From the IMG/VR virus record IMGVR_UViG_3300049812_000410, positions 1-25,217 of that record: a stretch of 25,217 bases of DNA. The stretch is one strand, 5' to 3'. Each line of letters begins with the position of its first letter. Within the stretch, counting starts at the first letter, position 1. The notes beneath the pieces are model-generated. The model did no database searches. It worked only from the letters and a program-made list of their open reading frames with translations, and was not told the origin of the DNA. This DNA is from a virus. Shown here in pieces: positions 1-9,923 of the stretch. A program made the position numbers and the translations under genes.

Positions 1-143
1 AATAGTATTGAAGCATTGAGAACACAATCAGAATTCAAGGTTCTCCACCTTCAGCAGAGACTAGACAGAGAAATCTGGAGAGTTGGGAAAAGGCAAAGCC
101 AAGCACCCAAAGAAAAAGGGTCTCAAGGAAAAAAAGATTTTTG
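1..143. other. Non-coding left edge, no gene recognised
   Basis: I see no supported gene here. An open frame reaches back from the 211 gene to a TTG at 16, but it has no ribosome binding site, and the real start at 211 has a good one. The stretch is purine-rich and can form weak local stems: TCTCCA 42-47 with TGGAGA 76-81, and TTGGG 83-87 with CCCAA 106-110 enclosing GGC-AAA-GCC (92-100). It could be the 5' untranslated part of an early transcript or the tail of something cut by the window edge. I could not place a convincing promoter. Confidence 0.4.
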
Positions 144-210
144 CAAACTGCTCATCTTATGGTGGGCAGATTGGAACAATCAGTTCCTACTAAAAACTAA
201 GGAGAAAAAA
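144..210 (+). repeat. Double-hairpin leader cassette, copy A
   Basis: Hairpin 1 is CTGCTCATC (148-156), loop TTAT, GGTGGGCAG (161-169): nine pairs, two of them G-U. Below it an A147/A170 mismatch is followed by CAA/TTG (144-146 with 171-173). Hairpin 2 is GATTG-GAA-CAATC (169-181). A competing stem GGAAC/GTTCC (173-177 with 183-187) is also possible. The element ends in ACTAAAAACTAAGGAG and a purine run up to the start codon at 211. The architecture matches copies B, C and D although the stem sequences differ, so I treat it as the most diverged of the four. Confidence 0.7.
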
Positions 211-393
211 ATGAACAAAGTACAAATTAGAGAAGAACTTAAAGCAATCACAAGCAGTGATGAATCAGTTGTAAGAGACATTGCTTTTGCTTTAAATTTA
301 ATTGCAACCAATCACACATTGGTTAAAGCTGTTGAAGAAAATGTAATCAATGTTGCTTTGATTGCTTATGAACTTGAGAGAAAACTAAGTTAG
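211..393 (+). CDS. Small hypothetical early protein (60 aa)
   Basis: I do not recognise this protein. It is a 60-residue, mostly helical, soluble-looking polypeptide with no cysteines, no membrane segment and no obvious motif. The sequence (MNKVQIREELKAIT... to ...LIAYELERKLS) reads like a short helical bundle. The ATG at 211 is chosen because AAGGAG sits at the usual spacing upstream and is shared with the downstream cassettes. An in-frame extension to a TTG at 16 lacks a ribosome binding site and runs through the structured leader. It is the first of four successive small genes that each follow a double-hairpin leader, which suggests an early accessory or host-takeover protein. That role is inferred from context only. 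Confidence 0.75.
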   Translation: MNKVQIREELKAITSSDESVVRDIAFALNLIATNHTLVKAVEENVINVALIAYELERKLS

Positions 394-475
394 TAATTAT
401 CTAACTGCTCTCTACTGGAGAGCAGATAGATACTTATACAAGTATCAATACAAAAAACAAAAAGGAGAAAACAAA
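394..475 (+). repeat. Double-hairpin leader cassette, copy B
   Basis: The cassette begins right after the stop codon of the upstream gene with TAATTATCTA. The outer stem TATCTA (398-403) pairs with TAGATA (427-432). An A404/A426 mismatch follows, then CTGCTCTC (405-412) pairs with GAGAGCAG (418-425) around a short loop. Hairpin 2, GATACTT-ATAC-AAGTATC (429-446), reuses the 3' side of the outer stem, so the two cannot fully form together. It ends in an A-rich spacer with AAAGGAG before the ATG at 476. Copy C is nearly identical through hairpin 1. Confidence 0.85.
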
Positions 476-880
476 ATGAAGAAAACAAAATATTATGCAT
501 ACATACCAAAAAAGCAATTAGTGAAAAGCTACAACGCATGGCAATGGAAAACTGATGCAACAGTCAGAAAACCAATCTATGTTGATGACAGTGGAGTTCC
601 ACATTTCAAATATGATGGAGACTTCCACCCAATCAAGCCAAATCACTTTGGACATAAGTATATAGACCTAAATGATAATCCAGTTTATTATGATGGATTT
701 AATGGTTTGGGTCTAATGCATTTTCCAAAACTTGATGGTGCAAAGTACAAAATCACATTGACTCTAGTTGATGCTGATGATGATGATGCTGATATACATG
801 TTGATGACAAACAACCTTCAAAGGATAGATTTGATGATAGTGTCATTCACACATATTCAGCTTACAATTACAACAAATAA
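476..880 (+). CDS. Hypothetical early protein with acidic stretch (134 aa)
   Basis: I do not recognise a family. The 134-residue product starts with a basic segment (MKKTKYYAYIPKKQ), is rich in aromatic residues (many Tyr, Phe and Trp) and has an acidic run near residues 99-112 (DADDDDADIHVDD). The composition suggests a small beta-rich soluble protein; the Asp cluster might bind metal or mimic nucleic acid, which is speculation. There is no signal peptide and no transmembrane helix. The ATG at 476 has AAAGGAG upstream inside leader copy B and is well supported. The gene lies between leader copies B and C and is not overlapped by its neighbours, unlike most genes in the window, so it looks like a self-contained early cassette. 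Confidence 0.8.
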   Translation: MKKTKYYAYIPKKQLVKSYNAWQWKTDATVRKPIYVDDSGVPHFKYDGDFHPIKPNHFGHKYIDLNDNPVYYDGFNGLGLMHFPKLDGAKYKITLTLVDADDDDADIHVDDKQPSKDRFDDSVIHTYSAYNYNK

Positions 881-952
881 GTAATTATCTAACTGCTCTC
901 TACTGGAGAGCAGATAGATACTTATGTATCACTAAAAACTAAAGGAGAAAAA
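881..952 (+). repeat. Double-hairpin leader cassette, copy C
   Basis: The copy begins GTAATTATCTA immediately after the TAA of the upstream gene. The outer stem is TATCTA (886-891) with TAGATA (915-920), separated by an A892/A914 mismatch from CTGCTCTC (893-900) with GAGAGCAG (906-913). Hairpin 2 is GATAC-TTAT-GTATC (917-930), again overlapping the outer stem. The tail CACTAAAAACTAAAGGAGAA is shared with copy D. It supplies the ribosome binding site of the ATG at 953. Confidence 0.85.
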
Positions 953-1120
953 ATGAAAAAAGAAATAGACATAGAGTTGATTGTATTGTCTTTGAAATAC
1001 ATTCAAAGAAACATTGATATGTCATTGTGGAAGGAAATCAACCCAGCTAACCAAATCAATTATGAAAAATGGGAAATATCAAGAGATATAAAAACATTAA
1101 TCAATAACTTAGATAAGTAA
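953..1120 (+). CDS. Small hypothetical early protein (55 aa)
   Basis: A 55-residue open frame, MKKEIDIELIVLSLKY... to ...KTLINNLDK, starting at an ATG with AAAGGAG seven bases upstream inside leader copy C. It is charged and probably helical, with one Trp-containing central segment and no cysteines or membrane segment. I do not recognise it. Its stop codon TAA (1118-1120) is part of the conserved GTAATTATC that opens the next leader copy, so gene end and cassette start are fused. The shared leader is the main reason to believe this short gene is real. Confidence 0.75.
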   Translation: MKKEIDIELIVLSLKYIQRNIDMSLWKEINPANQINYEKWEISRDIKTLINNLDK

Positions 1121-1190
1121 TTATCTAACTGCCCATCTACTCGGTGGGTAGATAGATACTTATGTATCACTAAAAACTAAAGGAGAAACT
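1121..1190 (+). repeat. Double-hairpin leader cassette, copy D
   Basis: This copy keeps the fold of B and C with a changed upper stem. TATCTA (1122-1127) pairs with TAGATA (1153-1158), A1128/A1152 is the conserved mismatch, and CTGCCCATC (1129-1137) pairs with GGTGGGTAG (1143-1151) in nine pairs including two G-U. Relative to B and C both sides of the stem change together, which is compensatory evidence for a conserved RNA structure. Hairpin 2 GATAC-TTAT-GTATC (1155-1168) and the tail with AAAGGAG match copy C exactly. Confidence 0.85.
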
Positions 1191-1403
1191 ATGGAAGAAA
1201 TAAAAGAAATGATTTCAAAAGAAATCGTTGATAGATATGCAGATGCACCATCAATGCCAGAGAGCGATGAGATATGGTCAGATGCAGAATACTGTAAGCA
1301 GATAATCGATTGCTTGATTGACACAAAAGTCAAGAACAAACATTTCGACCTTGCACAAACAGTAAAGTATCTAAAGATTGACATTGTGGAGAGCTATGTC
1401 TGA
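1191..1403 (+). CDS. Small acidic hypothetical protein (70 aa)
   Basis: A 70-residue acidic protein (MEEIKEMISKEIVDRYADAP... to ...YLKIDIVESYV) with two cysteines (CKQIIDC) seven positions apart and predicted mainly helical. I do not recognise a family. The ATG at 1191 follows AAAGGAG of leader copy D and is secure. Its last codons overlap the next gene by eight bases, and that gene's GGAG lies inside this coding region. This marks the switch from leader-separated genes to a translationally coupled chain. Confidence 0.8.
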   Translation: MEEIKEMISKEIVDRYADAPSMPESDEIWSDAEYCKQIIDCLIDTKVKNKHFDLAQTVKYLKIDIVESYV

Positions 1404-1605
1404 TAGATACACATTTAAAGAGAACTTCACAGTGGAGTTCACAATCGAAGCAGACTCTTATGACAAAGCATACAAAGCATATAGCCAGATGTTTGATAAG
1501 AACATTCAGCTTGGGTATGACAAGTGGAGAGATGTTGAGAACAAGAATATCCTTGTCGGTCAGTTTGAAGTTCAAACTGAATCAATACATGGAGAAGAAG
1601 AATGA
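1396..1605 (+). CDS. Small hypothetical protein (69 aa)
   Basis: The product MSDRYTFKENFTVEFTIEAD... is 69 residues. Its alternating pattern of charged and hydrophobic residues suggests two beta strands and a helix, and the phrase EADSYDKAYKAYSQMF resembles the helix of small phage proteins in which a strand is followed by 'A..A...A...'. That resemblance is loose and gives no function. I choose the ATG at 1396, with GGAG at 1388-1391, over an upstream GTG/TTG-type start. It overlaps the previous gene by eight bases and is coupled to the next gene by ATGA. Confidence 0.75.
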   Translation: MSDRYTFKENFTVEFTIEADSYDKAYKAYSQMFDKNIQLGYDKWRDVENKNILVGQFEVQTESIHGEEE

Positions 1606-1730
1606 GTAAGAGAGTTCTAATAGAATGCTCACAATGTGGTCTAACAAGCGACATTATAGATATGACACATTCTAAGATGACTCTTTGCTATTCATGTCTA
1701 GCTGACTTTGCTAATGGAGCTGAGATATGA
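1602..1730 (+). CDS. 42-residue four-cysteine zinc-ribbon-like microprotein
   Basis: The 42-residue product carries two CxxC pairs, CSQC near residue 9 and CYSC near residue 30. That spacing is typical of a small treble-clef or zinc-ribbon knuckle, so it probably binds one zinc ion and nucleic acid or a protein partner. The start ATG overlaps the previous stop (ATGA) and AGAAGAAG lies just upstream. It ends in another ATGA junction. Presence of four correctly spaced cysteines in so short a frame is the main argument that it is real. The specific target is unknown. Confidence 0.7.
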   Translation: MSKRVLIECSQCGLTSDIIDMTHSKMTLCYSCLADFANGAEI

Positions 1731-1819
1731 ACAGAGCATTGAGAAGAAAACTCAAAAGCAAGAAGCGTGGTCGAGTTATCTTCAATGGTAAAAGATTGAA
1801 GTATAGGACAAAAGAATGA
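1727..1819 (+). CDS. 30-residue highly basic microprotein
   Basis: A 30-residue frame, MNRALRRKLKSKKRGRVIFN and ten more residues, coupled to its neighbours by ATGA at both ends. About half its residues are Lys or Arg, which suggests an RNA- or DNA-binding peptide or a partner of an acidic host protein. There is no classical ribosome binding site beyond GGAGCTGAG upstream; coupling to the previous stop is the likely initiation route. It is too short for family assignment. It could be a chance frame, but the unbroken row of coupled frames around it argues for translation. Confidence 0.55.
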   Translation: MNRALRRKLKSKKRGRVIFNGKRLKYRTKE

Positions 1820-1917
1820 ATAGAGAAGATGAAATCAAAGTAGAGAAACTACAAAGAAAAATTTTATCTTTGAACAAAGAGAAGATGGAAAAACTTAGAT
1901 TACAAGAAGAAGAGTAA
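1816..1917 (+). CDS. 33-residue charged helical microprotein
   Basis: A 33-residue frame (MNREDEIKVEKLQRKILSLN...) that would form one amphipathic helix, possibly a short coiled coil with Ile/Leu at heptad positions. Its start overlaps the previous stop (ATGA). The stop TAA is part of GTAATTAGCTA, which matches the opening of the leader cassettes and begins the fifth leader. I do not recognise it. Coding status rests on coupling and composition only. Confidence 0.5.
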   Translation: MNREDEIKVEKLQRKILSLNKEKMEKLRLQEEE

Positions 1918-2051
1918 TTAGCTAGAGTCAATGGGGATTGCCCTTATTATGCGTACTAATACATACATAATACTCATTGGCTCTATGGTAACTATTCTGT
2001 CGTAGCACAAAGCTACGCTAGTTATCGCACAAAAAAATACAAAGGAGAATA
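1918..2051 (+). promoter_or_regulatory. Structured leader E: three-way junction plus long hairpin
   Basis: The 134-base gap folds very well. P1 is TAGAGTCAATG (1923-1933) with CATTGGCTCTA (1975-1985), eleven pairs with one G-U. It encloses P2, GGG-ATTG-CCC (1934-1943), and P3, TATTATG (1945-1951) with CATAATA (1966-1972). Directly after, GGTAACTA (1987-1994) pairs with TAGTTATC (2019-2026), and CGTAGC-ACAAA-GCTACG (2001-2017) stacks inside. AAAGGAG and the ATG at 2052 follow. The opening TAATTA-CTA and A-rich exit match the smaller cassettes, so it looks like an expanded relative. It does not match a tRNA or any riboswitch I know. Confidence 0.7.
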
Positions 2052-2651
2052 ATGGCAGAGATTAATCTGACAGATGATGAAGGTTACAATCCAAACGAGA
2101 GTTATGATTGGGTTCAATATCCTTCAAAAATTGACACCAGATGCGATGTTTGTTGGCGTTACCTATTCAAGGGAGACATGATAAAACAGCGTAAAGTTAA
2201 TGGTGTCATTTGGAGAGCAGTCTATTGCCCAAATGCTAAGAAGGAAATAATGCACTTGAATACATCAAAAGAATATTTGATGCATCTACAAGGTGTTAAT
2301 GCTCTTCTTGGTATTGAGTTTTCAAAAGAGCGTTACAACCAAGCTGTAAAAGAATGGGAGCGTATGCGTTACAGAAAAGGGTATCAAGATGTAACTACCA
2401 AAAATATTGTTGATGGACTATCAGCTGATGCACCAAAAGACTTATTGGATTTTGCAACAGACCAACTGAAGTATCTCAACAAGAAAAAAGAATCTTTATA
2501 TACTCGATTGAGAAATCGACAAGTAAAGGTTATGTATTCAGTCGATGATGATAAATCTAAAGACTTACGAAATGAGTATGAAGATGCATTGGCAAAGATT
2601 GAGTTCATGGAAAAACTAAAAAAACAAGCAAGAAGGGAGATGGACTTATGA
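2052..2651 (+). CDS. Hypothetical protein with Cys-pair N-terminus and coiled-coil C-terminus (199 aa)
   Basis: I do not recognise a family. The 199-residue protein has an N-terminal part with CDVC near residue 31 and a further Cys near residue 59 (VYCPNAKK), plausibly a zinc-stabilised fold with one ligand supplied by His. The C-terminal half (about 135-195) is strongly charged and helical (YLNKKKESLYTRLRNRQ, then EFMEKLKKQARREM), consistent with a coiled coil for oligomerisation. The ATG at 2052 follows AAAGGAG in structured leader E, so its translation may depend on that RNA. It overlaps the next gene by four bases. Position among small early genes and before replication-type genes suggests a DNA-metabolism or regulatory accessory role, as inference only. 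Confidence 0.8.
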   Translation: MAEINLTDDEGYNPNESYDWVQYPSKIDTRCDVCWRYLFKGDMIKQRKVNGVIWRAVYCPNAKKEIMHLNTSKEYLMHLQGVNALLGIEFSKERYNQAVKEWERMRYRKGYQDVTTKNIVDGLSADAPKDLLDFATDQLKYLNKKKESLYTRLRNRQVKVMYSVDDDKSKDLRNEYEDALAKIEFMEKLKKQARREMDL

Positions 2652-3007
2652 GAGAGTTCAAACCAATACTTTGGGAAGATGGCAGTTCTTTTCCAAAGAT
2701 TAAACAAGGATTCGATAAAAATGCTATCAAGTCAAAGTATTTTACTGAATCTATTTTAAGGACACTTGTGTCTAACACTGGCAAGGTGTACATCGTTTAC
2801 GAACAAAACAAAATGGGTACACCAACAGATTACAAGAAGCAAAAAGATAGTATCACTACTGGTTTTGCAAATGTGAAAAAGAAGTTGATACAAAGAAATC
2901 TACTTTTGTCATTTCGTGTAAGAAGTGATGAATTGTACAAAGGTGGCACAGTAAGAGTGTATGCAAAAGTATTACCACTTATGAGTGCAGAGAGTGAGGA
3001 AGAATGA
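2648..3007 (+). CDS. Hypothetical protein (119 aa)
   Basis: A 119-residue, basic, mixed alpha/beta protein beginning MREFKPILWEDGSSFPKIKQ. Residues about 34-115 alternate strand and helix (YFTESILRTLVSN, KVYIVYEQNK, LLLSFRVRSD, VRVYAKVLPL), which fits a compact single-domain fold. I see no catalytic motif, no cysteines and no membrane segment. Start and stop are both in ATGA junctions, and GGGAG lies upstream of the start. It pairs with the 2052 gene as a translationally coupled unit, so the two products may act together. Confidence 0.75.
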   Translation: MREFKPILWEDGSSFPKIKQGFDKNAIKSKYFTESILRTLVSNTGKVYIVYEQNKMGTPTDYKKQKDSITTGFANVKKKLIQRNLLLSFRVRSDELYKGGTVRVYAKVLPLMSAESEEE

Positions 3008-3219
3008 TAATGGATTTTATTTATTCAATGGAATTATATGAGCTTATAGCATCATCATTGTTGTTCGGATTCAGTCTCACGCTTCTTGGAGCTTGGATTG
3101 CTCTTAGTCATGCTGAGAGAAAACTTGACAGAGCTAACCAAAAAAGATTTGCAGATGAATATGGTATTCCATATTGGGTCAGAGCAACTGATGAGCAAAT
3201 CGGTATTACTAATCGTTGA
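3004..3219 (+). CDS. Small single-pass membrane protein (71 aa)
   Basis: The 71-residue product has one clear transmembrane helix near residues 13-33 (LIASSLLFGFSLTLLGAWIALS) followed by a charged cytoplasmic-type tail (HAERKLDRANQKR). With few charges before the helix and basic residues after it, an outside N-terminus is likely. I do not recognise it. It is not next to the lysozyme gene, so a holin role is possible but not supported by position. The start is coupled to the previous stop by ATGA. It is followed by a 40-base gap with no overlap, then a new ribosome binding site. Confidence 0.75.
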   Translation: MIMDFIYSMELYELIASSLLFGFSLTLLGAWIALSHAERKLDRANQKRFADEYGIPYWVRATDEQIGITNR

Positions 3220-3259
3220 TTTGTGATACTATTATTTAATACTAAAACAAAGGAGAAAA

Positions 3260-3493
3260 ATGACAGAACAATTAGTTCTTCTGTCTGTCAAAGAAGTCGC
3301 ACAATTACTAGGAGTAGATAGAGCTACTATTGGAAGTTGGAATCACGCTGGTAGATTACCAAATCCAGAGTGGACTGTTTCTGGTGGGCGAACACCAATA
3401 TGGACAGAAGATACTATCAAGGACTGGGCAAACTCAGATGAGTTCGTTCAATCCAAGTTAGATGGTTGGGCAAAGAATAGGTTAGAACAATGA
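3260..3493 (+). CDS. MerR/excisionase-type helix-turn-helix protein (77 aa)
   Basis: A small DNA-binding protein. Residues 6-60 (LLSVKEVAQLLGVDRATIGSW... then a wing with GGRTPIWTEDTIKDWA) match the pattern of MerR/AlpA/Xis-like winged helix-turn-helix domains: an S-x-x-E-x-A-x-x-L-G-V-x-x-x-T-I helix pair, then a G-R wing and a second helix. The protein has no effector domain, so it probably acts as a small transcription factor or recombination-directionality-like factor. No integrase is visible, which makes the transcription role more likely. The ATG has AAAGGAG upstream. It overlaps the next gene by four bases. Confidence 0.8.
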   Translation: MTEQLVLLSVKEVAQLLGVDRATIGSWNHAGRLPNPEWTVSGGRTPIWTEDTIKDWANSDEFVQSKLDGWAKNRLEQ

Positions 3494-3783
3494 GCGTATT
3501 CTTTAGAGGACAACCAATACCAGACTACGCTAAGTCAAAGCACGAAAAAGTTAAATATGTTTTGACAAGGTATAGAGATGCAGAACCAATATCAAATGGA
3601 GAGTTCATTTATGATTTGAACTTTTCAAGATTTGGTTCTTCTATTCACAATCTCAGAAGAGATGGTTGGGATATTGTAACCCTTCCATCTAAGAAGAAGG
3701 GTCTATGCTTCTACTACCTAAGAAGTTTACCCAGTGAAGTAGAAAAGCAAACACAGCTTCGTTTGGTTTCAAATGAGAGCTGA
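3490..3783 (+). CDS. Winged helix-turn-helix protein, HTH_39-like (97 aa)
   Basis: The central part, residues about 25-65, reads PISNGEFIYDLNFSRFGSSI followed by HNLRRDGWDIVTLPSK. This resembles the small phage winged-helix domain in which an R-x-x-x-x-I-x-x-L-R-x-x-G-W-x-I motif precedes a beta wing (HTH_39 type). It probably binds DNA and may regulate phage transcription. It is coupled to the preceding helix-turn-helix gene by ATGA, so the two may form a regulatory pair. The family call is from pattern memory; the helix-turn-helix nature is more secure than the exact family. Confidence 0.7.
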   Translation: MSVFFRGQPIPDYAKSKHEKVKYVLTRYRDAEPISNGEFIYDLNFSRFGSSIHNLRRDGWDIVTLPSKKKGLCFYYLRSLPSEVEKQTQLRLVSNES

Positions 3784-3997
3784 AGTAAAACATTGGAGAG
3801 AATGGGCAGTGCTTACCAACGAAGAGAAGGTTGCACTGTATCCATATCTCTCTGATAAAGAAAAGAAAAAAATCTGGACAAGAGACTACTATAAAGTAAT
3901 CAGAAACAATACTTATCCAAACAAGTACAAAGATAAGTATGATGCCAGATTTGAAGAACAGAAAAAAAGAAGGGAGAAGAAATATGAGCAAGGATAG
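3773..3997 (+). CDS. Small basic hypothetical protein (74 aa)
   Basis: A 74-residue, very basic and aromatic protein (HWREWAVLTNEEKVALYPYL... to ...RFEEQKKRREKKYEQG), probably all-helical with a C-terminal charged helix. I do not recognise it. Its start overlaps the previous gene by eleven bases without a clear ribosome binding site, so initiation is probably by coupling. Its end overlaps the next gene by fourteen bases and contains that gene's GGGAG. High Lys/Arg content is compatible with nucleic-acid binding, but nothing specific can be said. Confidence 0.65.
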   Translation: MRAEVKHWREWAVLTNEEKVALYPYLSDKEKKKIWTRDYYKVIRNNTYPNKYKDKYDARFEEQKKRREKKYEQG

Positions 3998-4376
3998 AGC
4001 GATTGTTGCACAATGTGCATTCAAAGGAGCTATCGAATTATGTGTTGCTGAAAAAATACAAATGAGTGAAATCATGGATTACACCTATAAGTATGCAGAT
4101 GCAATGTGGGATAAGTATGGCTTTGAATCATCTTATGATTCTGGAAGCAGTAATTATTCTGGTGGTAAGGACAGACCAGCTTCTGATAAGCAGAAGAGCT
4201 TTGTGAGCAGTCTGTTTAACAAACTTACTATTCAGCAACAGCAACAGTACAAAGATAAAGTTGATACAAACAGTATGACTATATCTGATGCTTCTGACTT
4301 TATTCAGACATTTCAAGACTTGATTGAGAAACAAAAGAACACTCCAGTCAATCTTGATGATGCACCACCATTTTAG
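3984..4376 (+). CDS. ssDNA-metabolism protein with SSB-like acidic tip (130 aa)
   Basis: The 130-residue protein has an N-terminal helical part (about 1-45, MSKDRAIVAQCAFKGAIELC...), a Ser/Gly/Tyr-rich linker (46-62), a segment ASDKQKSFVSSLFNKL...SDASDFIQTFQDLI (65-115), and ends in LDDAPPF. The helical repeat starting 'A-S-x-K-Q' and followed by a second 'S-x-A-S-x-x-I' helix occurs in many phage replication and recombination proteins. The Asp-Asp-...-Pro-Phe end copies the tip by which bacterial SSB recruits replication and repair proteins. No OB fold is visible. I choose ATG 3984 (GGGAG upstream) over an in-frame ATG at 3939. It sits directly before a replication-initiator-like gene, which fits. 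Confidence 0.65.
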   Translation: MSKDRAIVAQCAFKGAIELCVAEKIQMSEIMDYTYKYADAMWDKYGFESSYDSGSSNYSGGKDRPASDKQKSFVSSLFNKLTIQQQQQYKDKVDTNSMTISDASDFIQTFQDLIEKQKNTPVNLDDAPPF

Positions 4377-5117
4377 ATGGATTATATAAAGTCAGATATA
4401 TATTTCAGCATTGTGCCAGAATGGGTCATTGATGCACCTATTTCGGCACAAGCTGTCAGAGTCTATGCAGTGTTGTGTCGCTATGCAGATAAAGAAGATG
4501 GTACTTGCTTCCCAAGCATACGAACACTTGCAGAGAGACTCAATGTCTCTGATTCAACTATAAAAAGAGCTTTGAAGGAACTAAAAAGTATCTCAGCTAT
4601 CAAATCAGAAAAAAGATTTGATAAGGCAACTGGAGAACAAACTTCAAATCTCTACACAGTTTATAGGAGTCAAGGTGTCATATATGACCTACCCAGTGTC
4701 AAATCTGACCCTAGCCCAAGTTCATCAGAGACCCACAAACTAGAGTCATCTAACCATAGTCATTCTTTGGAAGATAGAAAAGCTCTATGGAATGCACTAA
4801 CAGAATCTATTGGTTACACACCAAAGACCCAAACAGAGAGAGCTGGGTGGAATAAATGTGTTAAGCAATTAAGAGAAGCTGGTGCAAAAGCAGATGAAAT
4901 TCCTAGCAGGGTAGTACAATATAAAAAGCACTTTAAAGGTATGACACTTACACCTTATGCTTTAGTAAAGCATTGGTCATTACTTGACAGTTATGTCGAG
5001 CAAGAGCCAAAGAAGCATGATTGTGCAACTGATGGTTGCCACATGATTGACTTAGATGTAATTGAGAAATGCCGATTTTGTGGTTTAGAAATTTCTAAGC
5101 AAACAACCAATAGCTAA
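4377..5117 (+). CDS. Winged-helix replication initiator-like protein (246 aa)
   Basis: Residues about 10-97 form a winged helix-turn-helix of the replication-protein type: SAQAVRVYAVLCRYAD, FPSIRTLAERLNVSDSTIKR as the recognition helices, and a TSNLYTVY wing. This is the N-terminal pattern of phage replisome organisers and O-like initiators (HTH_36 style). Residues 110-133 are a Ser-rich linker. Residues 135-207 form a second helical domain with Trp-rich ends. The C-terminus has C216, C221, C232 and C235, a likely zinc knuckle. The ATG directly abuts the previous stop. No helicase or polymerase follows here, so the role as origin-binding initiator is inferred; a transcription regulator is the alternative. 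Confidence 0.7.
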   Translation: MDYIKSDIYFSIVPEWVIDAPISAQAVRVYAVLCRYADKEDGTCFPSIRTLAERLNVSDSTIKRALKELKSISAIKSEKRFDKATGEQTSNLYTVYRSQGVIYDLPSVKSDPSPSSSETHKLESSNHSHSLEDRKALWNALTESIGYTPKTQTERAGWNKCVKQLREAGAKADEIPSRVVQYKKHFKGMTLTPYALVKHWSLLDSYVEQEPKKHDCATDGCHMIDLDVIEKCRFCGLEISKQTTNS

Positions 5118-5263
5118 CAACAGGAGCAAGAGTAAGGAATAGAGTCGAAGGAGAACTTCGGACAGGTGTAGATACTCCTTTCATCTAGCGATAGATAATA
5201 GGTTACCTTGTTGAACACCTTACTCAGCTCCATTTATAAACTTCCATCGACCAGATATTCCAT
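5118..5263 (+). ncRNA. Structured intergenic RNA candidate
   Basis: This untranslated stretch can fold as a closed element. GGAGC (5123-5127) pairs with GCTCC (5227-5231) and, after a small internal loop, AGTAAGG (5131-5137) pairs with CCTTACT (5218-5224). Inside are GTCGAAG-GAGAA-CTTCGGAC (5144-5163, one bulged G) and ATCTA-GCGA-TAGAT (5183-5196), capped by a GNRA tetraloop. AGGTGT (5164-5169) can instead take ACACCT (5215-5220), which competes with the closing stem. It could be a leader switch for the 5296 gene or a free small RNA. I do not recognise a family. Confidence 0.55.
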
Positions 5264-5296
5264 TAGACTGACATCGAACAAATGTTTGAAGGTCTA
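5264..5296 (+). promoter_or_regulatory. Hairpin over the ribosome binding site of the phosphoesterase gene
   Basis: TAGAC (5264-5268) pairs with GTCTA (5292-5296) and TCGAAC (5274-5279) pairs with GTTTGA (5284-5289) around the loop AAAT. The structure contains GAAGG, the only plausible ribosome binding site, and the A of the ATG at 5296. In the folded state initiation should be blocked, so it looks like a translational operator or thermosensitive element. One G-U pair is included. Confidence 0.55.
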
Positions 5297-6501
5297 TGAC
5301 TGAAAAAGCTAAAAAAATAATTAAGAAGAAACAGGAAGTCAAGCATAATCAAGAACTAGGAAACAATTATTATCCAAGTGGTTGGAAGCCACGAATAGAT
5401 TATGACTATGGTACTAACACTGGAGAGCTTACTCATGTTCAACCACATGATGATAACTTCAAGTTCAATTCACTTCTGGAGTCTTGGGGTTACGATTCAA
5501 AAGAATTTTATATAGAAGAAGATAAAATACGATTCTCTACTTGGCAGACACAAATCAAAGGTGGAGAGATTGTCGATATGTATGCATTCAAGGCAATCAT
5601 CAAGAAAAGAAACCCACATCATAATAAATTTTTTAGAAAATTAGAACGACAGATTGAAAAGAAAAAACCAATTAGGGTATCACAAGACACTGGAGAACTA
5701 GCATATATGTTTTTTTGTGCAGACTGGCAGTTTGGAAAAGAAGAGTATGGAGCTGATTGGGGTGTAGATAGTACGATTGATTACATAAGAAATGCGATTG
5801 TAAAAGCAAAAAGAGAAATAAAAAATCTTAAAAAGATTGGTCAAGTAGTTGATGAAATTTACATCATAGGTTTAGGCGACCTTATTGAATGCACTTTTGG
5901 CTTCTTCGACCACCAAAATTTTAACATCAGTTTGACAAGAACAGAGCAAGAACACTTAGCAAGAAAAATGGTTCTTGAAGTTTTAGATGGATTATTAGGA
6001 TTAGCACCAAAAATAGTTATTGGAGCTGTCATTGGCAACCATTCAGAATATAGAACTGGAAAAACAACTGTTGCAACGACAAGATTAGATGGTTCTGATA
6101 CTGCAATATTTCAAATAGTTGGAGAAATAATTGAAGGTAGAGAGCGTTACAAGCATGTAAAAACTGTCGTACCAGATGATTATCATTTAACTTTAGAAAT
6201 AAAAGGTAAAAGAATTACTTTTTATCATGGACACATGGTTTCTGGTGGTTCTGGAATAGAAGGCAGACTTATGAATTGGTGGAAGAATCAAGGACATGCT
6301 GGAAGAATACAATCTGATTACCTTGTTACTGGACACTATCATCATTTAAGAGTTTTAACAGAGCGTGGTAAAACATGGTTTCAAGCACCATCGTTAGATA
6401 CATCAGTAGAACTTGAAGCAAGGAGTGGATTGACTACTTCTCATGGAGTATTGACCTTTACTTTGTCAAAAAATGGTTGGGATAATCTTAAAATTTTATA
6501 A
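5296..6501 (+). CDS. Calcineurin-like metallophosphoesterase (401 aa)
   Basis: A two-metal phosphoesterase or nuclease. The family motifs appear in order: ADWQFG (D143), GLGDLIE (G194-D195), GNHSEYR (G247-N248-H249), HGH (311-313) and TGHYHH (346-350). These supply the Asp, Asn and His ligands of the di-metal centre. Motif I reads D-W-Q instead of the usual D-x-H, so one metal ligand is replaced by Gln. The N-terminal 130 residues are a family-specific extension with a Lys-rich start. Similar phage proteins are often annotated as SbcD-like nucleases, but a 5'-end nuclease, 2',3'-cyclic phosphodiesterase or protein phosphatase is equally possible. Position between replication-type genes and the lysozyme suggests DNA or RNA processing. 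The start has only GAAGG, inside a hairpin. Confidence 0.88.
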   Translation: MTEKAKKIIKKKQEVKHNQELGNNYYPSGWKPRIDYDYGTNTGELTHVQPHDDNFKFNSLLESWGYDSKEFYIEEDKIRFSTWQTQIKGGEIVDMYAFKAIIKKRNPHHNKFFRKLERQIEKKKPIRVSQDTGELAYMFFCADWQFGKEEYGADWGVDSTIDYIRNAIVKAKREIKNLKKIGQVVDEIYIIGLGDLIECTFGFFDHQNFNISLTRTEQEHLARKMVLEVLDGLLGLAPKIVIGAVIGNHSEYRTGKTTVATTRLDGSDTAIFQIVGEIIEGRERYKHVKTVVPDDYHLTLEIKGKRITFYHGHMVSGGSGIEGRLMNWWKNQGHAGRIQSDYLVTGHYHHLRVLTERGKTWFQAPSLDTSVELEARSGLTTSHGVLTFTLSKNGWDNLKIL

Positions 6502-6525
6502 ATTTAATGATTATTGATTTATAAT
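6497..6525 (+). promoter_or_regulatory. Promoter candidate with perfect TATAAT, leaderless start
   Basis: TATAAT lies at 6520-6525, seven bases before the ATG at 6532, in a very AT-rich gap. The hexamer at 6497-6502 (TATAAA) at 17-base spacing is a poor -35 match. Transcription would start at or within a base or two of the ATG, so the first mRNA codon would be the start codon. No ribosome binding site precedes 6532, which fits leaderless initiation. Chance occurrence in AT-rich DNA is the main alternative. Confidence 0.45.
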
Positions 6526-6531
6526 ATTTGT

Positions 6532-6684
6532 ATGAAAAGAATAGCTATCGAGAATGATGGTACAAAAGTAAGACTACTTTTGATGGATAATGATGACAAT
6601 ATCATTTATAGGAACTTGCCAAAAGGGATTATAGATATTGACAGACTAAAAGAGTATGAAGATACTTCTTTATCCAGTAATTAG
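6532..6684 (+). CDS. Small hypothetical protein, possibly leaderless (50 aa)
   Basis: A 50-residue frame, MKRIAIENDGTKVRLLLMDN..., with a strand-turn-strand look and an acidic middle (DNDDN). I do not recognise it. There is no Shine-Dalgarno sequence before the ATG; a TATAAT sits seven bases upstream, so it may be translated from a leaderless transcript. Its last 29 bases overlap the next gene in another frame, an unusually deep overlap for this window. It may serve mainly to couple translation into the lysozyme gene. Confidence 0.55.
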   Translation: MKRIAIENDGTKVRLLLMDNDDNIIYRNLPKGIIDIDRLKEYEDTSLSSN

Positions 6685-7081
6685 TTGCTTAATAACTTTT
6701 AATCAACCAGTTACTCCAGAAGTCATTTACGATTACAAGGATTGTAAGAAGATTGAGTTCCAAGTAAATTCAGTCTCACACTGGCAACCCTTGATACAGA
6801 AATACTTTAGAGAGGAAGATGTGATAAAAGTTAGTAGAATCATGTTTTGTGAGTCATCTGGTCGCTCAAAAGCTGTCGGATATAACACAAATGGCACAAC
6901 TGATGTCGGTTTGATGCAGATAAATGATTCGACATACGACTGGATTTCACAGAAACTTGGGTGGTATGGAGACAGAAAAGACCCAGATTTCAATTTAAAG
7001 ATGAGTTCTTGGCTATTCTATAAGTCTGGAGAACATCATTGGAATAGTTCTGCAAAGTGTTGGAAGGATAGGAATGATTAA
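6656..7081 (+). CDS. Lysozyme-like transglycosylase, candidate endolysin (141 aa)
   Basis: A peptidoglycan-degrading enzyme of the lysozyme/SLT fold. E66 in MFCESSGRSKAVG is the expected catalytic Glu, and DVGLMQIN (83-90) is the hallmark substrate-groove motif. The rest (WYGDRKDPDFNLKMSSWLFY, then W129 and C135) fits the C-terminal part of goose-type or actinobacterial lysozyme-like domains. The N-terminus MKILLYPVISCLITFNQPVT is hydrophobic with one Lys; VISC at 8-11 resembles a lipobox, so it may be exported by signal peptide or membrane-tethered. It could lyse the host or open the wall during entry. It lies upstream of the packaging genes, not after the tail. The start overlaps the 6532 gene. 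Confidence 0.82.
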   Translation: MKILLYPVISCLITFNQPVTPEVIYDYKDCKKIEFQVNSVSHWQPLIQKYFREEDVIKVSRIMFCESSGRSKAVGYNTNGTTDVGLMQINDSTYDWISQKLGWYGDRKDPDFNLKMSSWLFYKSGEHHWNSSAKCWKDRND

Positions 7082-7265
7082 AAAAGCAATAGTTACTGGT
7101 ACTTGGAGAAAAACTTGGTTGGCAAAAGATGTCATTGAAGTTTTAGATTCAATACAAGAACTAAAGAATATGTACCCACATCTGAATCTTAGTAATGCAC
7201 AAGTAGAGTTTGTAGAGCTTGATGATATAGATACTGAGTTTGAAGAAGTTAAGGAAGAAGAATGA
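7074..7265 (+). CDS. Small hypothetical protein, acidic C-terminus (63 aa)
   Basis: A 63-residue product with a basic N-terminal part (MIKKAIVTGTWRKTWLAKDV) and a very acidic end (FVELDDIDTEFEEVKEEE). It is probably a single strand plus helix fold. I do not recognise it. The start overlaps the lysozyme gene by eight bases and the stop is in an ATGA junction with the next microORF. AGGATAGG upstream of the ATG is an acceptable ribosome binding site. Proximity to the lysozyme raises a lysis-accessory role, but there is no membrane segment to support that. Confidence 0.65.
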   Translation: MIKKAIVTGTWRKTWLAKDVIEVLDSIQELKNMYPHLNLSNAQVEFVELDDIDTEFEEVKEEE

Positions 7266-7348
7266 GAGATATATTTGATATTTATAAAATCACTGAAGAT
7301 GAAGTTCTGCTTGATTTGAATGGACAAGAAATAGGAGAAGAAGAATGA
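7262..7348 (+). CDS. 28-residue acidic microprotein
   Basis: A 28-residue acidic frame (MRDIFDIYKITEDEVLLDLN...) coupled to both neighbours by ATGA. AAGGAAGAAG upstream serves as ribosome binding site. It also encodes the GGAGAAGAAGA purine run used by the next gene. Its sequence cannot be assigned. Coding is supported by the tight coupling only. Confidence 0.5.
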   Translation: MRDIFDIYKITEDEVLLDLNGQEIGEEE

Positions 7349-7527
7349 ATTACCCAGATGGATTTAAAAGATTAGATGCAATAGATGCAGAGATTGATGA
7401 CACTGTATTTAAAGAAGTAATAATAAAACAACTTAACTATATGCGTATAGAAGGAATCAATCTTGTTGATGATGCAGATGATTTAGTAAATCAATACTTA
7501 CAGATTTGCAAAGCATTACCAGAATAA
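7345..7527 (+). CDS. Small acidic hypothetical protein (60 aa)
   Basis: A 60-residue acidic, helical protein (MNYPDGFKRLDAIDAEIDDT... to ...NQYLQICKALPE). I do not recognise it. The ATG at 7345 has GGAGAAGAAG directly upstream and overlaps the previous stop. It ends in TAATG, sharing one base with the next start. No motif points to function. Composition is like many small helical phage accessory proteins located near the terminase genes. Confidence 0.7.
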   Translation: MNYPDGFKRLDAIDAEIDDTVFKEVIIKQLNYMRIEGINLVDDADDLVNQYLQICKALPE

Positions 7528-7607
7528 TGGACACTCTCTTTGTAATCCTTGTGGTTGTAGGAGTAAATGCGTTTGCATGGTGGCTAATCAAAGAAGATAA
7601 AATATAA
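7527..7607 (+). CDS. 26-residue single-TM microprotein
   Basis: A 26-residue frame that is nearly all one transmembrane helix, MDTLFVILVVVGVNAFAWWL, followed by IKEDKI. The N-terminus carries one Asp and the C-terminus two Lys, which favours a C-terminus inside. TAATG junctions on both sides couple it to its neighbours. Lying a few hundred bases after the lysozyme, it could be a minimal holin- or antiholin-like peptide, or a membrane effector. The uninterrupted hydrophobic helix with flanking charges argues against a chance frame. Confidence 0.6.
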   Translation: MDTLFVILVVVGVNAFAWWLIKEDKI

Positions 7608-7702
7608 TGTTCGATGATTATTTGCTCGATGACCTTGATGATGAACTTACAGAAGATGAAATACAAACCTTTGCCAGAGAACATTACAATACAAAAAAGT
7701 AA
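7607..7702 (+). CDS. 31-residue acidic microprotein
   Basis: A 31-residue frame (MFDDYLLDDLDDELTEDEIQ...) with a strikingly acidic N-terminal two thirds, coupled to the previous stop by TAATG. Its last 47 bases overlap the SET-domain gene in another frame. It could be a real acidic peptide that acts on a basic partner, or a translated stretch needed only for coupling into the SET gene. AGAAGATAAAATATA upstream gives weak ribosome binding potential. Confidence 0.45.
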   Translation: MFDDYLLDDLDDELTEDEIQTFAREHYNTKK

Positions 7703-7967
7703 TATTGAAGGGCTAGGACTCTTTGCATTAGAGTTCATAGATAAAAATAAAACGCTTGGTGTTAGTCATGTCAAGCATAAAGATTACTTGAATGGATATA
7801 TCAGAACTCCATTGGGTGGATTTATAAATCATTCTGAAGAACCAAACTGTAAACTTAGAGAAGTTGGGCATGAAATGTATTTACAAACAATTCAAAAGAT
7901 AAAAGCTGGGGAAGAACTAACATTGAAGTACCAAATGTATAATCCAGTGGAGATAAGAGATGAGTGA
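7656..7967 (+). CDS. SET-domain protein, candidate lysine methyltransferase (103 aa)
   Basis: The product matches a minimal SET domain. It has the N-terminal strand with G-x-G-L-F-A (IEGLGLFALEFIDKNKTLGV), the central GGFINHSEEPNC (the N-H-S of the AdoMet pocket and pseudoknot) and the C-terminal IKAGEELTLKY with the conserved E-L-T-x-x-Y. SET enzymes transfer methyl groups from AdoMet to protein lysines. No post-SET cysteine cluster is visible. At about 103 residues it is as small as viral SET enzymes. I start at ATG 7656; in-frame ATGs at 7614 and 7641 are possible. None has a good ribosome binding site, suggesting coupling. It overlaps the TerS gene by eight bases, so it is probably expressed with the packaging genes; the substrate is unknown. 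Confidence 0.8.
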   Translation: MKYKPLPENITIQKSNIEGLGLFALEFIDKNKTLGVSHVKHKDYLNGYIRTPLGGFINHSEEPNCKLREVGHEMYLQTIQKIKAGEELTLKYQMYNPVEIRDE

Positions 7968-8466
7968 TAGAAACATATTCGGAATAAGAAAAAGAAATAA
8001 AATTCTTGATAATGATGTGCAAGAGAGACTGTTATTTGCTATTAGTCAAGGTTCTTATATACAAGATGCTTGTGCTTACGCTGGAATAGATAGAGCAACT
8101 TACCATCGTTGGAGTAAAAAAGCAGAGAGTGGAGATGAAATTTACAAAAAACTTTTTGATGAGATTACAAGAATAGAAGCAACATTCAAAGTAGATACAG
8201 TCAAAAAAATTAGAGAAATCGGAGAAGAAGATAGAAACCCAAGAGCTTTGCAATGGTTACTAGAAAAAAGATACCCAGAACAGTTTGGAGATACAAGCAA
8301 AGTAGTTTTATCTACTGAAGAAAATGTAGTAAATGTTATAAGATTTAGTGATGGAGAGTTAGCAAATGAACTTCCAGATGGGGTCATAGATGACCTTGAT
8401 GTGCAACATGTGCAACATGAACAGCAGGAAAATGTCAATGATGCTAATATTGATGATTATGACTGA
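7960..8466 (+). CDS. Small terminase subunit, TerS-like (168 aa)
   Basis: TerS recognises phage DNA and hands it to the large subunit for packaging. Residues about 20-60 form a helix-turn-helix (RLLFAISQGSYIQDACAYAG then IDRATYHRWSKKA), the usual TerS DNA-binding head. Residues 61-110 are helical and contain NPRALQWLLEKRYPEQFG, a phrase typical of terminase small subunits of this type. The C-terminal 50 residues are acidic and end in DANIDDYD, likely the TerL- or portal-contacting tail. It lies one small gene upstream of TerL, as expected. The start overlaps the SET gene by eight bases. Confidence 0.8.
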   Translation: MSDRNIFGIRKRNKILDNDVQERLLFAISQGSYIQDACAYAGIDRATYHRWSKKAESGDEIYKKLFDEITRIEATFKVDTVKKIREIGEEDRNPRALQWLLEKRYPEQFGDTSKVVLSTEENVVNVIRFSDGELANELPDGVIDDLDVQHVQHEQQENVNDANIDDYD

Positions 8467-8677
8467 TGACCAAATCAATAATGAATTTGTAGATATTGTG
8501 ATGGAGCAACTCTATGATGTAGAGCTTGAATCACAAAAGACATTTGAAGAAGCTGTGCAGTATGTAATACCTATGCCACCACCAGCTATATACTTCATAT
8601 CACAGATTCCACCAGAGCAGATAGAAGAACTGTTCTCTGATATGTTGAGATGGTTAAGAGATGGATACGACTTCTAA
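8459..8677 (+). CDS. Small hypothetical protein between TerS and TerL (72 aa)
   Basis: A 72-residue acidic protein (MTDDQINNEFVDIVMEQLYD...) with a Pro-rich stretch PMPPPAIYFISQIPPEQIEE near residue 37 and a C-terminal helix DMLRWLRDGYDF. I do not recognise it. The ATG at 8459 overlaps the TerS end by eight bases; an ATG at 8453 in the same frame is also possible. Its last 17 bases overlap the TerL gene. Position suggests a packaging accessory factor, as inference. Confidence 0.65.
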   Translation: MTDDQINNEFVDIVMEQLYDVELESQKTFEEAVQYVIPMPPPAIYFISQIPPEQIEELFSDMLRWLRDGYDF

Positions 8678-9923
8678 AACTAAAATTGTTGAATGGGAAC
8701 TTCCTAAGTTACACAAATCACAACTTGAAGTAGCTAAATCAAAAAAGAGATTCAAGATAGTCGTTGCTGGTAGAAGATTCGGTAAAACAAAATTAGGAAC
8801 TGCATTATGCATACTTTATGCATTAGATGGTAAAAGAGCTTGGTGGGTTGCACCAACTTACGCTATGGCTTTGGAAGGTTGGAGAGAACTAAGATACTTT
8901 GCATATTCTTATGGATTAGAAGTAAGAGAATCAGAGAAAACAATAAACACTGGTAATGGTGGTCAAGTTACAGTAAAGACAGCTGATGCACCAGATAGAC
9001 TTCGTGGTGCTGGATTAGATTTAGTTGTGCTTGATGAATGTGCATTTATTAAAGAACAGACTTGGAAGGAAGTATTACGACCAACCTTATCAGATAGATT
9101 AGGTTCTGCTGTATTTATATCAACACCAAAAGGAGTACAGAACTGGTTTAAGAGATTGTATGATGAAGCAGAAGCTAAAGATGATTGGGAGAGATGGACA
9201 TTCTCTACTTACGATAATCCAACAATAGATAAGAATGAGCTAGTAGAAGCAAAAAAAGAACTAGGTAGCTTCTTGTTCAGTCAAGAGTATGAAGCTAAGT
9301 TCGTAGACCAAGTAGGTGGGATTATCAAAGCAGATTGGTTTCAGTATTACCATCGAGAAGAGAAAACAGAGTTTGATGAGAATGATAACTACAAAGACTT
9401 TGTCTATCTGACAACTGATGTAGATAGTGTAAGGTTAGAAGATTTACGAATAGTAACAGCTGTGGACTTAGCAACATCAACTAAGACATCTGCTGATTTT
9501 ACAGTGGCTACAACAATAGGTATTGATAAGAAGGATAGAATCTATGTTCTTGATGTCGTAAGAGATAAAGTAGAAGCACCAGAGATAATCAGTTTGCTCG
9601 AAAAAGTAAATGAGAAGTGGCAACCAGAAAAGATTGGCATAGAATCTGCTGGGTTTCAATTAGCTCTAATTCAGATAATACGCAGACAAACTTCTCTACC
9701 GATAGTAAAGTTAAAGGCAGATAAAGATAAGTTATCGAGAGCTTTGCCATTGAGTGCGAAAATGGAAGCATCTATGGTATTCTTTGCTAACGATAGTTTA
9801 TGGTATTCTGAACTGGAGAAGGAGTTGTTACAGTTCCCATCTGGAGAGCATGATGACCAAGTTGATAGTTTGGCTTACGCAGTGTTGCAAGTTGCAAGAA
9901 GGAAACAAATAAAGGCATATTAG
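8661..9923 (+). CDS. Large terminase subunit, TerL (420 aa)
   Basis: The packaging motor ATPase and nuclease. Walker A is AGRRFGKT (36-43). Walker B and its catalytic Glu are LVVLDE (121-126). The coupling motif region SAVFISTPKG follows (149-158). The RNase H-like nuclease domain starts near 265 (TAVDLATSTKTSADFT with D269), with E328 in KIGIESAG and the final acidic pair in HDDQVDSLAY (D398, D399, D402). All active-site residues are present, and 420 residues is normal for the family. It belongs with the Terminase_6 type used by many lambda-like siphoviruses. The stop TAG at 9921-9923 is directly followed by the portal start at 9924. Confidence 0.95.
   Translation: MDTTSKTKIVEWELPKLHKSQLEVAKSKKRFKIVVAGRRFGKTKLGTALCILYALDGKRAWWVAPTYAMALEGWRELRYFAYSYGLEVRESEKTINTGNGGQVTVKTADAPDRLRGAGLDLVVLDECAFIKEQTWKEVLRPTLSDRLGSAVFISTPKGVQNWFKRLYDEAEAKDDWERWTFSTYDNPTIDKNELVEAKKELGSFLFSQEYEAKFVDQVGGIIKADWFQYYHREEKTEFDENDNYKDFVYLTTDVDSVRLEDLRIVTAVDLATSTKTSADFTVATTIGIDKKDRIYVLDVVRDKVEAPEIISLLEKVNEKWQPEKIGIESAGFQLALIQIIRRQTSLPIVKLKADKDKLSRALPLSAKMEASMVFFANDSLWYSELEKELLQFPSGEHDDQVDSLAYAVLQVARRKQIKAY

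Follow-up and report, generated by a model that had tools for sequence, protein, structure and literature searches.

Phages rapidly gain and lose small genes for host takeover and anti-defense, and the locus described here touches the question of how a newly gained gene gets expressed at once within a packed operon. The window, by which we mean the whole stretch of DNA analyzed, is a virus record of 25,217 bases from IMG/VR. Terminase, portal, head, and capsid protein genes lie in its right part, and its left end is the early region, where small genes are followed by those for a replication-initiation-like protein (4377–5117) and an exonuclease family protein (5296–6501). A sequence-only reading had placed copies of a double-hairpin RNA leader before four successive small genes of this region, at 144–210, 394–475, 881–952, and 1121–1190. 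All four copies are present, and these ranges also take in the SD stretch.

Elsewhere in the window, the gene at 7614–7967 encodes a protein with a SET domain (Pfam PF00856, 43 bits), which is unusual for a phage, and its DNA matches Pelagibacter phage Kolga (69% over ~190 bases). A 178-nt non-coding stretch with a good fold (z −2.9) lies between the replication protein and exonuclease genes (5118–5295); whether it is an origin or a small RNA can only be raised as a question. The protein encoded at 3939–4376 carries the C-terminal sequence NLDDAPPF, which is similar to the acidic tail found in single-stranded DNA-binding proteins (SSBs); we take its DDAPPF end to be SSB-like, and a Pfam search of this protein gave no SSB match. 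Host searches with the terminase, portal, tape measure, and DNA returned distant or tiny matches only, and the host was not assigned.

In the window copies, all on the plus strand, hairpin 1 consists of a 3-bp outer stem (CAA/TTG or CTA/TAG), an A.A mismatch, a CTGC../..GCAG stem, and a short variable loop. Hairpin 2 (GGAAC/GTTCC or GATAC/GTATC) follows immediately 3', and then come an A-rich exit, (A)AGGAG, and an ATG at 211, 476, 953, and 1191, the same architecture that had been read from the sequence. Copy 1 (136–187), of the "first-in-array" type, comprises GATT at 136–139, hairpin 1 at 144–173, and hairpin 2 at 173–187 with the loop AATCA, the AATC of which is complementary to the flanking GATT. 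The remaining copies begin with GTAA: copy 2 (393–446) has it at 393–396, with hairpins at 401–429 and 429–446; copy 3 (881–930) at 881–884, with hairpins at 889–917 and 917–930; and copy 4 (1117–1168) at 1117–1120, including the stop codon of the gene at 953–1120, with hairpins at 1125–1155 and 1155–1168. For each copy, all 200 dinucleotide shuffles fold less well (z −4.27, −6.10, −6.11, and −5.33 for copies 1–4). Upstream of copy 1 lies the untranslated leader of the early operon (1–135, plus strand). In the near-identical record L008, just outside the window equivalent, a terminator-like hairpin and TGTTATACT (TGnTATACT, an extended −10-like box) are found 5' of this leader, and we infer from its sequence that this box may be the early promoter.

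To find further copies, we searched IMG/VR with a pattern drawn from copies 2 and 3, in which the inner stem was left unconstrained. The resulting 31 stretches included ~28 that share the conserved flanks and in which the inner stem is compensated; matches in L029, L039, and L041, where the conserved flanks were absent, were rejected. A covariance model built from 23 copies (R1), which matches copy 1 at 138–191, revealed as many as six clustered copies in a record, along with stem classes outside the pattern, CAGC/GCTG and CTAC/GTAG replacing CTGC/GCAG; searches for these classes brought in more phages. The pattern GCAAACTRC..GYAGATTGG proved too loose, with most of its 89 stretches due to chance, and only model-confirmed ones were retained. 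The element is present in ~51 IMG/VR records, some of them near-identical to one another, with 1–6 copies each, in one cluster per searched record and on a single strand, that of the gene. The element-bearing records form one large shared-gene network with at least three gene-content groups. A lack of further copies in related phages would have refuted the sequence-only reading; instead, many were found. A second model (R2), built from 28 copies of other, more distant phages with the window and its nearest relatives excluded, recovers all four window copies (E = 2.9e-5, at 144–187, 4.1e-13, 2.3e-13, and 5.5e-15 for copies 1–4), and its only other matches in the window are antisense shadows of the palindromic copies 2–4.

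None of the 4227 models of Rfam release 15 matched the window at its gathering score, and loose thresholds yielded no family either. The best score, 21–24 bits against a cut-off of 49.9, was that of freshwater-2 (RF02980), an identity that we rejected given the sub-cut-off score and an aligned part consisting mostly of the SD stretch. Six pattern matches in GTDB genomes were judged by eye to be due to chance. Searching isolated phages with the leader gave no convincing match (best E 0.3, LC765218), and no description of the element was found in the open-access literature, most subscription journals being outside this search. The element is a small folded RNA of uncultivated marine phages and represents a new RNA family absent from Rfam.

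The fold is supported by extensive covariation. Across 81 distinct copies, 99.0% of the pair cells are standard pairs, two-sided changes occur in 13 of 16 pairs (174 such cells), and the covariation score is 0.421, compared with 0.136 ± 0.009 for shuffled controls and 0.029–0.060 for slid partners. Because this alignment was fitted to the covariance model, we reran the test after aligning 28 copies of other phages with plain MAFFT, which gave 97.5% paired cells, two-sided changes in 13 of 19 pairs, and a score of 0.324, against 0.102 for shuffled and at most 0.076 for slid controls. Without a supplied structure, RNAalifold picks hairpin 1 plus hairpin 2 for the 28 copies from other phages. The claim that pairing is kept while stem letters differ, which a lack of significant covariation would have undone, is strongly borne out against both kinds of controls.

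Few letters of the element are fixed: the invariant pair C9–G120, the pair C13–G116 (swapped to G–C in L057 and L064), and the opposed unpaired A12 and A117 (A.G in two copies). The loop sequence is free (UUAU, UUCG, UUAG, and GAAA-type), with insertions of up to ~75 nt. In hairpin 1, the apical loop is free and accepts insertions of ~35 and ~75 nt. Insertions of 35–75 nt in this loop were seen in L027:31–121 (−), L013/L014 (14916–15050, −), and L054:12466+, and some contain inner hairpins.

On the sense strand, there are 84 G.U pairs and 2 A.C pairs, a ratio that remains 22 to 2 after dropping the mostly-U.G wobble column 20–109, and this asymmetry points to the transcript, not the DNA, as most likely the constrained molecule. 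The element might instead act at the DNA level, as a palindrome for a recombinase or a DNA-binding operator, its fold being a by-product, as with attC or ESAS. Such a site would be in keeping with one element per gene, a stop codon at the edge, a variable apical part, and genes swapped between sites, but neither a double-stranded nor a bottom-strand site predicts the excess of sense-strand G.U over A.C pairs, hairpin 2 covaries separately, and homology between copies explains the swaps. We regard a DNA-level site as very improbable.

Beyond the two hairpins, positions 1–4 of the element are complementary to the hairpin 2 loop (125–128). Of 311 cells, 292 agree with this pairing; permutations average 247 and never exceed 272, and alternative registers reach only 79–218. 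The forms of this third helix are GUAA/UUAU, AUAA/UUAU, CUAA/UUAG, GUGA/UUAC, CUGA/UUAG, GAUU/AAUC, GUUA/UAAC, and UUAA/UUAA, and CUUA/UAAG and GCUA/UAGC pair when the register is moved by one position. Taken singly, each of the pairs beats 1000 of 1000 shuffles. The helix is weaker in the 28-copy MAFFT set (90% paired, two-sided changes in 2 of 4 pairs), partly owing to the misalignment or absence of the shifted and first-in-array classes in that set. The classes share descent, and independent events are therefore fewer than the counts given. Since positions 1–4 covary with the hairpin 2 loop, the true start of the element lies 5' of the one given in the sequence-only reading, which located the copies correctly but set their 5' start too far downstream.

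As the third helix crosses hairpin 2, two arrangements are possible: an H-type pseudoknot whose first loop holds hairpin 1, or a switching between one long hairpin and the pair of hairpins. The sequences exclude neither, and both remain open. By nearest-neighbor energies, the long hairpin (1–8 with 121–128) is preferred in 79 of 80 copies, with a mean of −21.1 kcal/mol for the long single hairpin vs −16.7 kcal/mol for two hairpins. Given this predicted minimum-energy fold, hairpin 2 would need help, a kinetic advantage, or the pseudoknot. The extension pairs 5–8/121–124 of the long hairpin are unsupported (5–124 is unpaired, and 8–121 is G.G in 14). Only 0–1 nt are available to close the pseudoknot in part of the copies; such short loops may strain simultaneous formation of the helices and speak for alternation. 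One conceivable, although rather doubtful, role for alternation is that of a bistable RNA sensing upstream termination, in which a ribosome stopped at the UAA (positions 2–4) would hide the strand 1–8 so that hairpin 2 forms, the long hairpin forming otherwise. If true, the phage would order or gate each exchangeable early gene via a swappable RNA switch, and the occurrence of such a design in two sizes within one operon (types A and B, below) would make it a general phage gene-cassette architecture.

The placement of the element is strict on one side and loose on the other. In 85 of the 92 copies that have an upstream gene, the stop codon of that gene ends between −1 and +5 relative to the start of the element, and in 66 of these 85 it is UAA at positions 2–4. 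The distance to the start codon, by comparison, is 12–64 nt, except for ~165 nt at L033:8577 (−), where another structured insert intervenes, and the SD sequence is never within covarying pairs. Structured inserts of 100–165 nt between the element and the start codon were observed in L033:8577–8637 (−), L028:1593+, and L017:286−; they have long inverted repeats, such as ATTATGATTTGTG..CACAAATCATAA, and possibly represent an additional RNA module. The copy 1 type (GATTTTTGCAAACTGC) heads the array, with no upstream gene, in 13 of 13 phages. Every gene of an array is preceded by one element, and the last gene is not followed by one, which assigns the element to the gene downstream of it. The element is missing before operon genes that overlap their upstream neighbor (1378 to 1917), as would suit a role where genes are not translationally coupled.

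A start at the stop codon leaves no room for a promoter outside the coding sequence, which counts against ordinary promoter cassettes like the PeSL of T4, despite the similar layout between early genes. In a promoter consensus scan of 1–9000, there was no excess over shuffles, with 25 promoter-like matches compared to 32.7 (sd 5.3), and we find this explanation the hardest to entertain. Nor is a terminator likely: no U run follows any copy, and no intrinsic terminator was found on the plus strand in 1–9000. A processive antitermination RNA acting on the host RNA polymerase would be closer in form. The put RNA of HK022 consists of two adjacent stem-loops of ~70 nt located just after early promoters (PMC9378689), and the element likewise has two adjoining stem-loops, about 55–70 nt in all, with copy 1 placed shortly after the (inferred) early promoter, within the untranslated leader. 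However, put occurs once per operon and the element before every gene, intrinsic terminators in the early region show no excess (1 found vs 3.6 expected), and the contacts that define put, which suppresses termination through the zinc-binding domain of the RNA polymerase beta' subunit, can be assessed only with the host. Antitermination remains possible but unlikely.

The genes behind the elements are diverse. The check proposed for the leaders, namely, a covariance model, a search of phage contigs, and a look for unrelated small genes downstream, has now been run, and the 99 downstream proteins were assigned to 51 small-gene families unrelated to one another. In the window, the array consists of four plus-strand genes encoding proteins of 60, 134, 55, and 70 amino acids (211–393, 476–880, 953–1120, and 1191–1403, the last in the array), the first three without a family match and the fourth without one above the cut-off. 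Among ten representative array proteins, two match Pfam at E ≤ 0.01: the product of the MINALTGN gene (L033:8155−, L028:1166+, L046:6800−) matches the anti-restriction domain ArdC-N (25.0 bits against a cut-off of 22.6), and another has a weak SprT-like match, below the cut-off. Judging from the ArdC-N match, array genes may serve against host defense.

Comparison of related phages places the exchange of these genes at the elements. Outside the array, the window and L009 are 94.5% identical over 4.7 kb and 96.7% identical over 0.7 kb. Within it, their homology continues through element 1, the first gene, and element 2, is lost in 476–880 and 953–1120, where L009 carries other genes, and is back at element 4. 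L066 contains a homologue of the second gene, and its cassette corresponding to 392–868 is 81% identical to the window at the DNA level, compared to 70–72% for the core genes, so that the cassette was probably moved more recently. Moreover, the same gene can be found behind different stems: the MSSWYN gene behind three (CTGC, CAGC, and the CGT/ACG outer-stem form) and the MINALTGN gene behind two classes (CTGC and CTAC). Together, the element-bounded replacements and the genes found behind different stems show directly that leader and gene are independent of each other. The suggestion that small genes can be swapped at these leaders is supported. As far as these sequence comparisons go, the elements are borders of gene exchange; frequent or active movement is not shown. 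Homologous recombination between copies suffices, and dedicated machinery is neither needed nor shown. Separately, we observed that the untranslated leader 5' of the first element in L054, L055, L057, and L026 differs from that of the window group and that homology between the two groups starts at GATTTTTGCAAACTGC, another exchange border.

The same operon contains a second, larger leader of similar plan, type B, before the gene starting at 2052 (1914–2026, plus strand; fold z −3.10). It starts with GTAATTAGCTAG, the GTAA of which contains the stop codon of the ORF at 1816–1917, and shares its opening GTAATTAGCTA with the element described above (type A). A hairpin 1 of ~60 nt is followed by hairpin 2 (GGTAACTA..TAGTTATC, 1987–2026) and by AAAGGAG at 2041–2047. 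A pattern search gave 11 distinct relatives with compensated stems (GAGTCAATG/CATTGGCTC, GAGCTCATCAC/GTGGTGGGCTC, GGGCGCTC/GAGCGCC, GAGTAGTC/GGACTACTC), including L020:6486−, L063:5077−, L066:11521−, L073:2091+, L043:1000+, and L156:1538+. In L045, the type B leader is nearly unchanged, although the gene that follows shows only 36% identity. Around AUACCCUU, the sequence of the type B internal loop appears conserved. From the shared start and plan, we would guess that types A and B are of common descent.

What, then, does the element do? We favor, at about even confidence, a cis-acting, portable 5' leader by which every accessory gene becomes an expression unit of its own and which doubles as an exchange joint; its molecular action is inferred, as the evidence on function comes from sequence only, without expression, probing, or mutation data. 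The leader would be transcribed within the early operon, one copy ahead of each small accessory gene, and its compact fold in the mRNA would uncouple the downstream cistron from upstream translation. With the SD sequence offered on an unstructured A-rich stretch, each gene could be translated independently, and the message perhaps protected or processed. A ribosome terminating on the stop codon in positions 1–4 would open that helix and let hairpin 2 form, and upstream translation could hypothetically thereby bias the fold. Genes bounded by near-identical leaders could then be replaced one at a time by ordinary homologous recombination, with the neighbors undisturbed. Such an isolating and equipping leader fits best because the element is anchored at the stop codon, leaves the SD sequence free, and is lacking at overlapping genes. 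Against it, the distance to the start codon varies, and the geometry for a direct control of ribosome binding is therefore not fixed.

Two other readings at the RNA level remain possible, each with a modest chance of being right. T7 early genes have RNase III sites between them, and the element might similarly be a processing or stability site, cut by an RNase (of the RNase III type or other) or blocking a 5' exonuclease, to give separate stable messages. Its position between cistrons at the stop codon, the mismatch-interrupted stem, and the tolerance of loop insertions (L027:31–121, L014:14916–15050) would suit such a site, but without stacking of hairpin 2, the uninterrupted helix is short for an RNase III substrate, there are no cleavage data, and the host is unknown. 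Alternatively, a phage or host RNA-binding protein could repress or activate all array genes jointly through a translational operator, in the manner of gp32. A single shared fold stands ahead of many genes, the invariant unpaired A12 and A117 together with C9–G120 resemble a recognition site at the base below a free apical loop, and the succession of pseudoknot, A-rich stretch, and SD sequence resembles the gene 32 operator (PMC3014915). No regulator has been identified, however, the only SSB hint being the DDAPPF end noted above, without a Pfam match; furthermore, the SD sequence is not sequestered, and the start-codon distance is variable. The work adds an RNA family to those known and supplies a defined leader suited to reporter testing, and a covarying RNA module that marks exchange joints in a widespread set of marine phages offers a handle for finding such genes.

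Among known systems, the PeSL cassettes of T4-type phages, said to have been described by Arbiol and colleagues in GBE in 2010, reportedly place stem-loops between small early genes and take part in gene shuffling. The element shares with them the stem-loop between small early genes and gene exchange at the unit; it differs in that no early promoter was found within the unit (by consensus scan only), in the double hairpin with a third helix, the covariation, the phages concerned, and the start at a stop codon. With no promoter excess over shuffles, the earlier description of a PeSL analogue without an obvious promoter is a fair one. Integron attC sites are folded bottom-strand DNA recognized by the IntI recombinase; the base-pair asymmetry of the element favors sense RNA, without settling the comparison with attC. 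Freshwater-2 resembles it in stacked hairpins followed by AAAGGAGAAAACAAAUG before the start codon. The likeness to put, two stem-loops 3' of an early promoter that is itself inferred, extends to copy 1 only, and no terminators were seen here. In the T4 gene 32 leader, a pseudoknot lies upstream of an A/U-rich ribosome binding region (PMC3014915), but that leader serves a single gene and is autoregulatory, whereas the element precedes many genes and has an extra hairpin inside the knot. The nearest described repeats are the SAS/ESAS of Cluster K mycobacteriophages, located upstream of the start codons of many unrelated non-structural genes, with inverted repeats and a variable spacer, and sometimes overlapping the upstream stop codon (PMC3203893). 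The 13-bp SAS found at start codons, GGGATAGGAGCCC, is absent from the window starts, where the leaders were read directly, and the authors of that study concluded that sequence changes in ESAS do not support RNA pairing (PMC3203893); in the element described here, by contrast, pairing is strongly supported.
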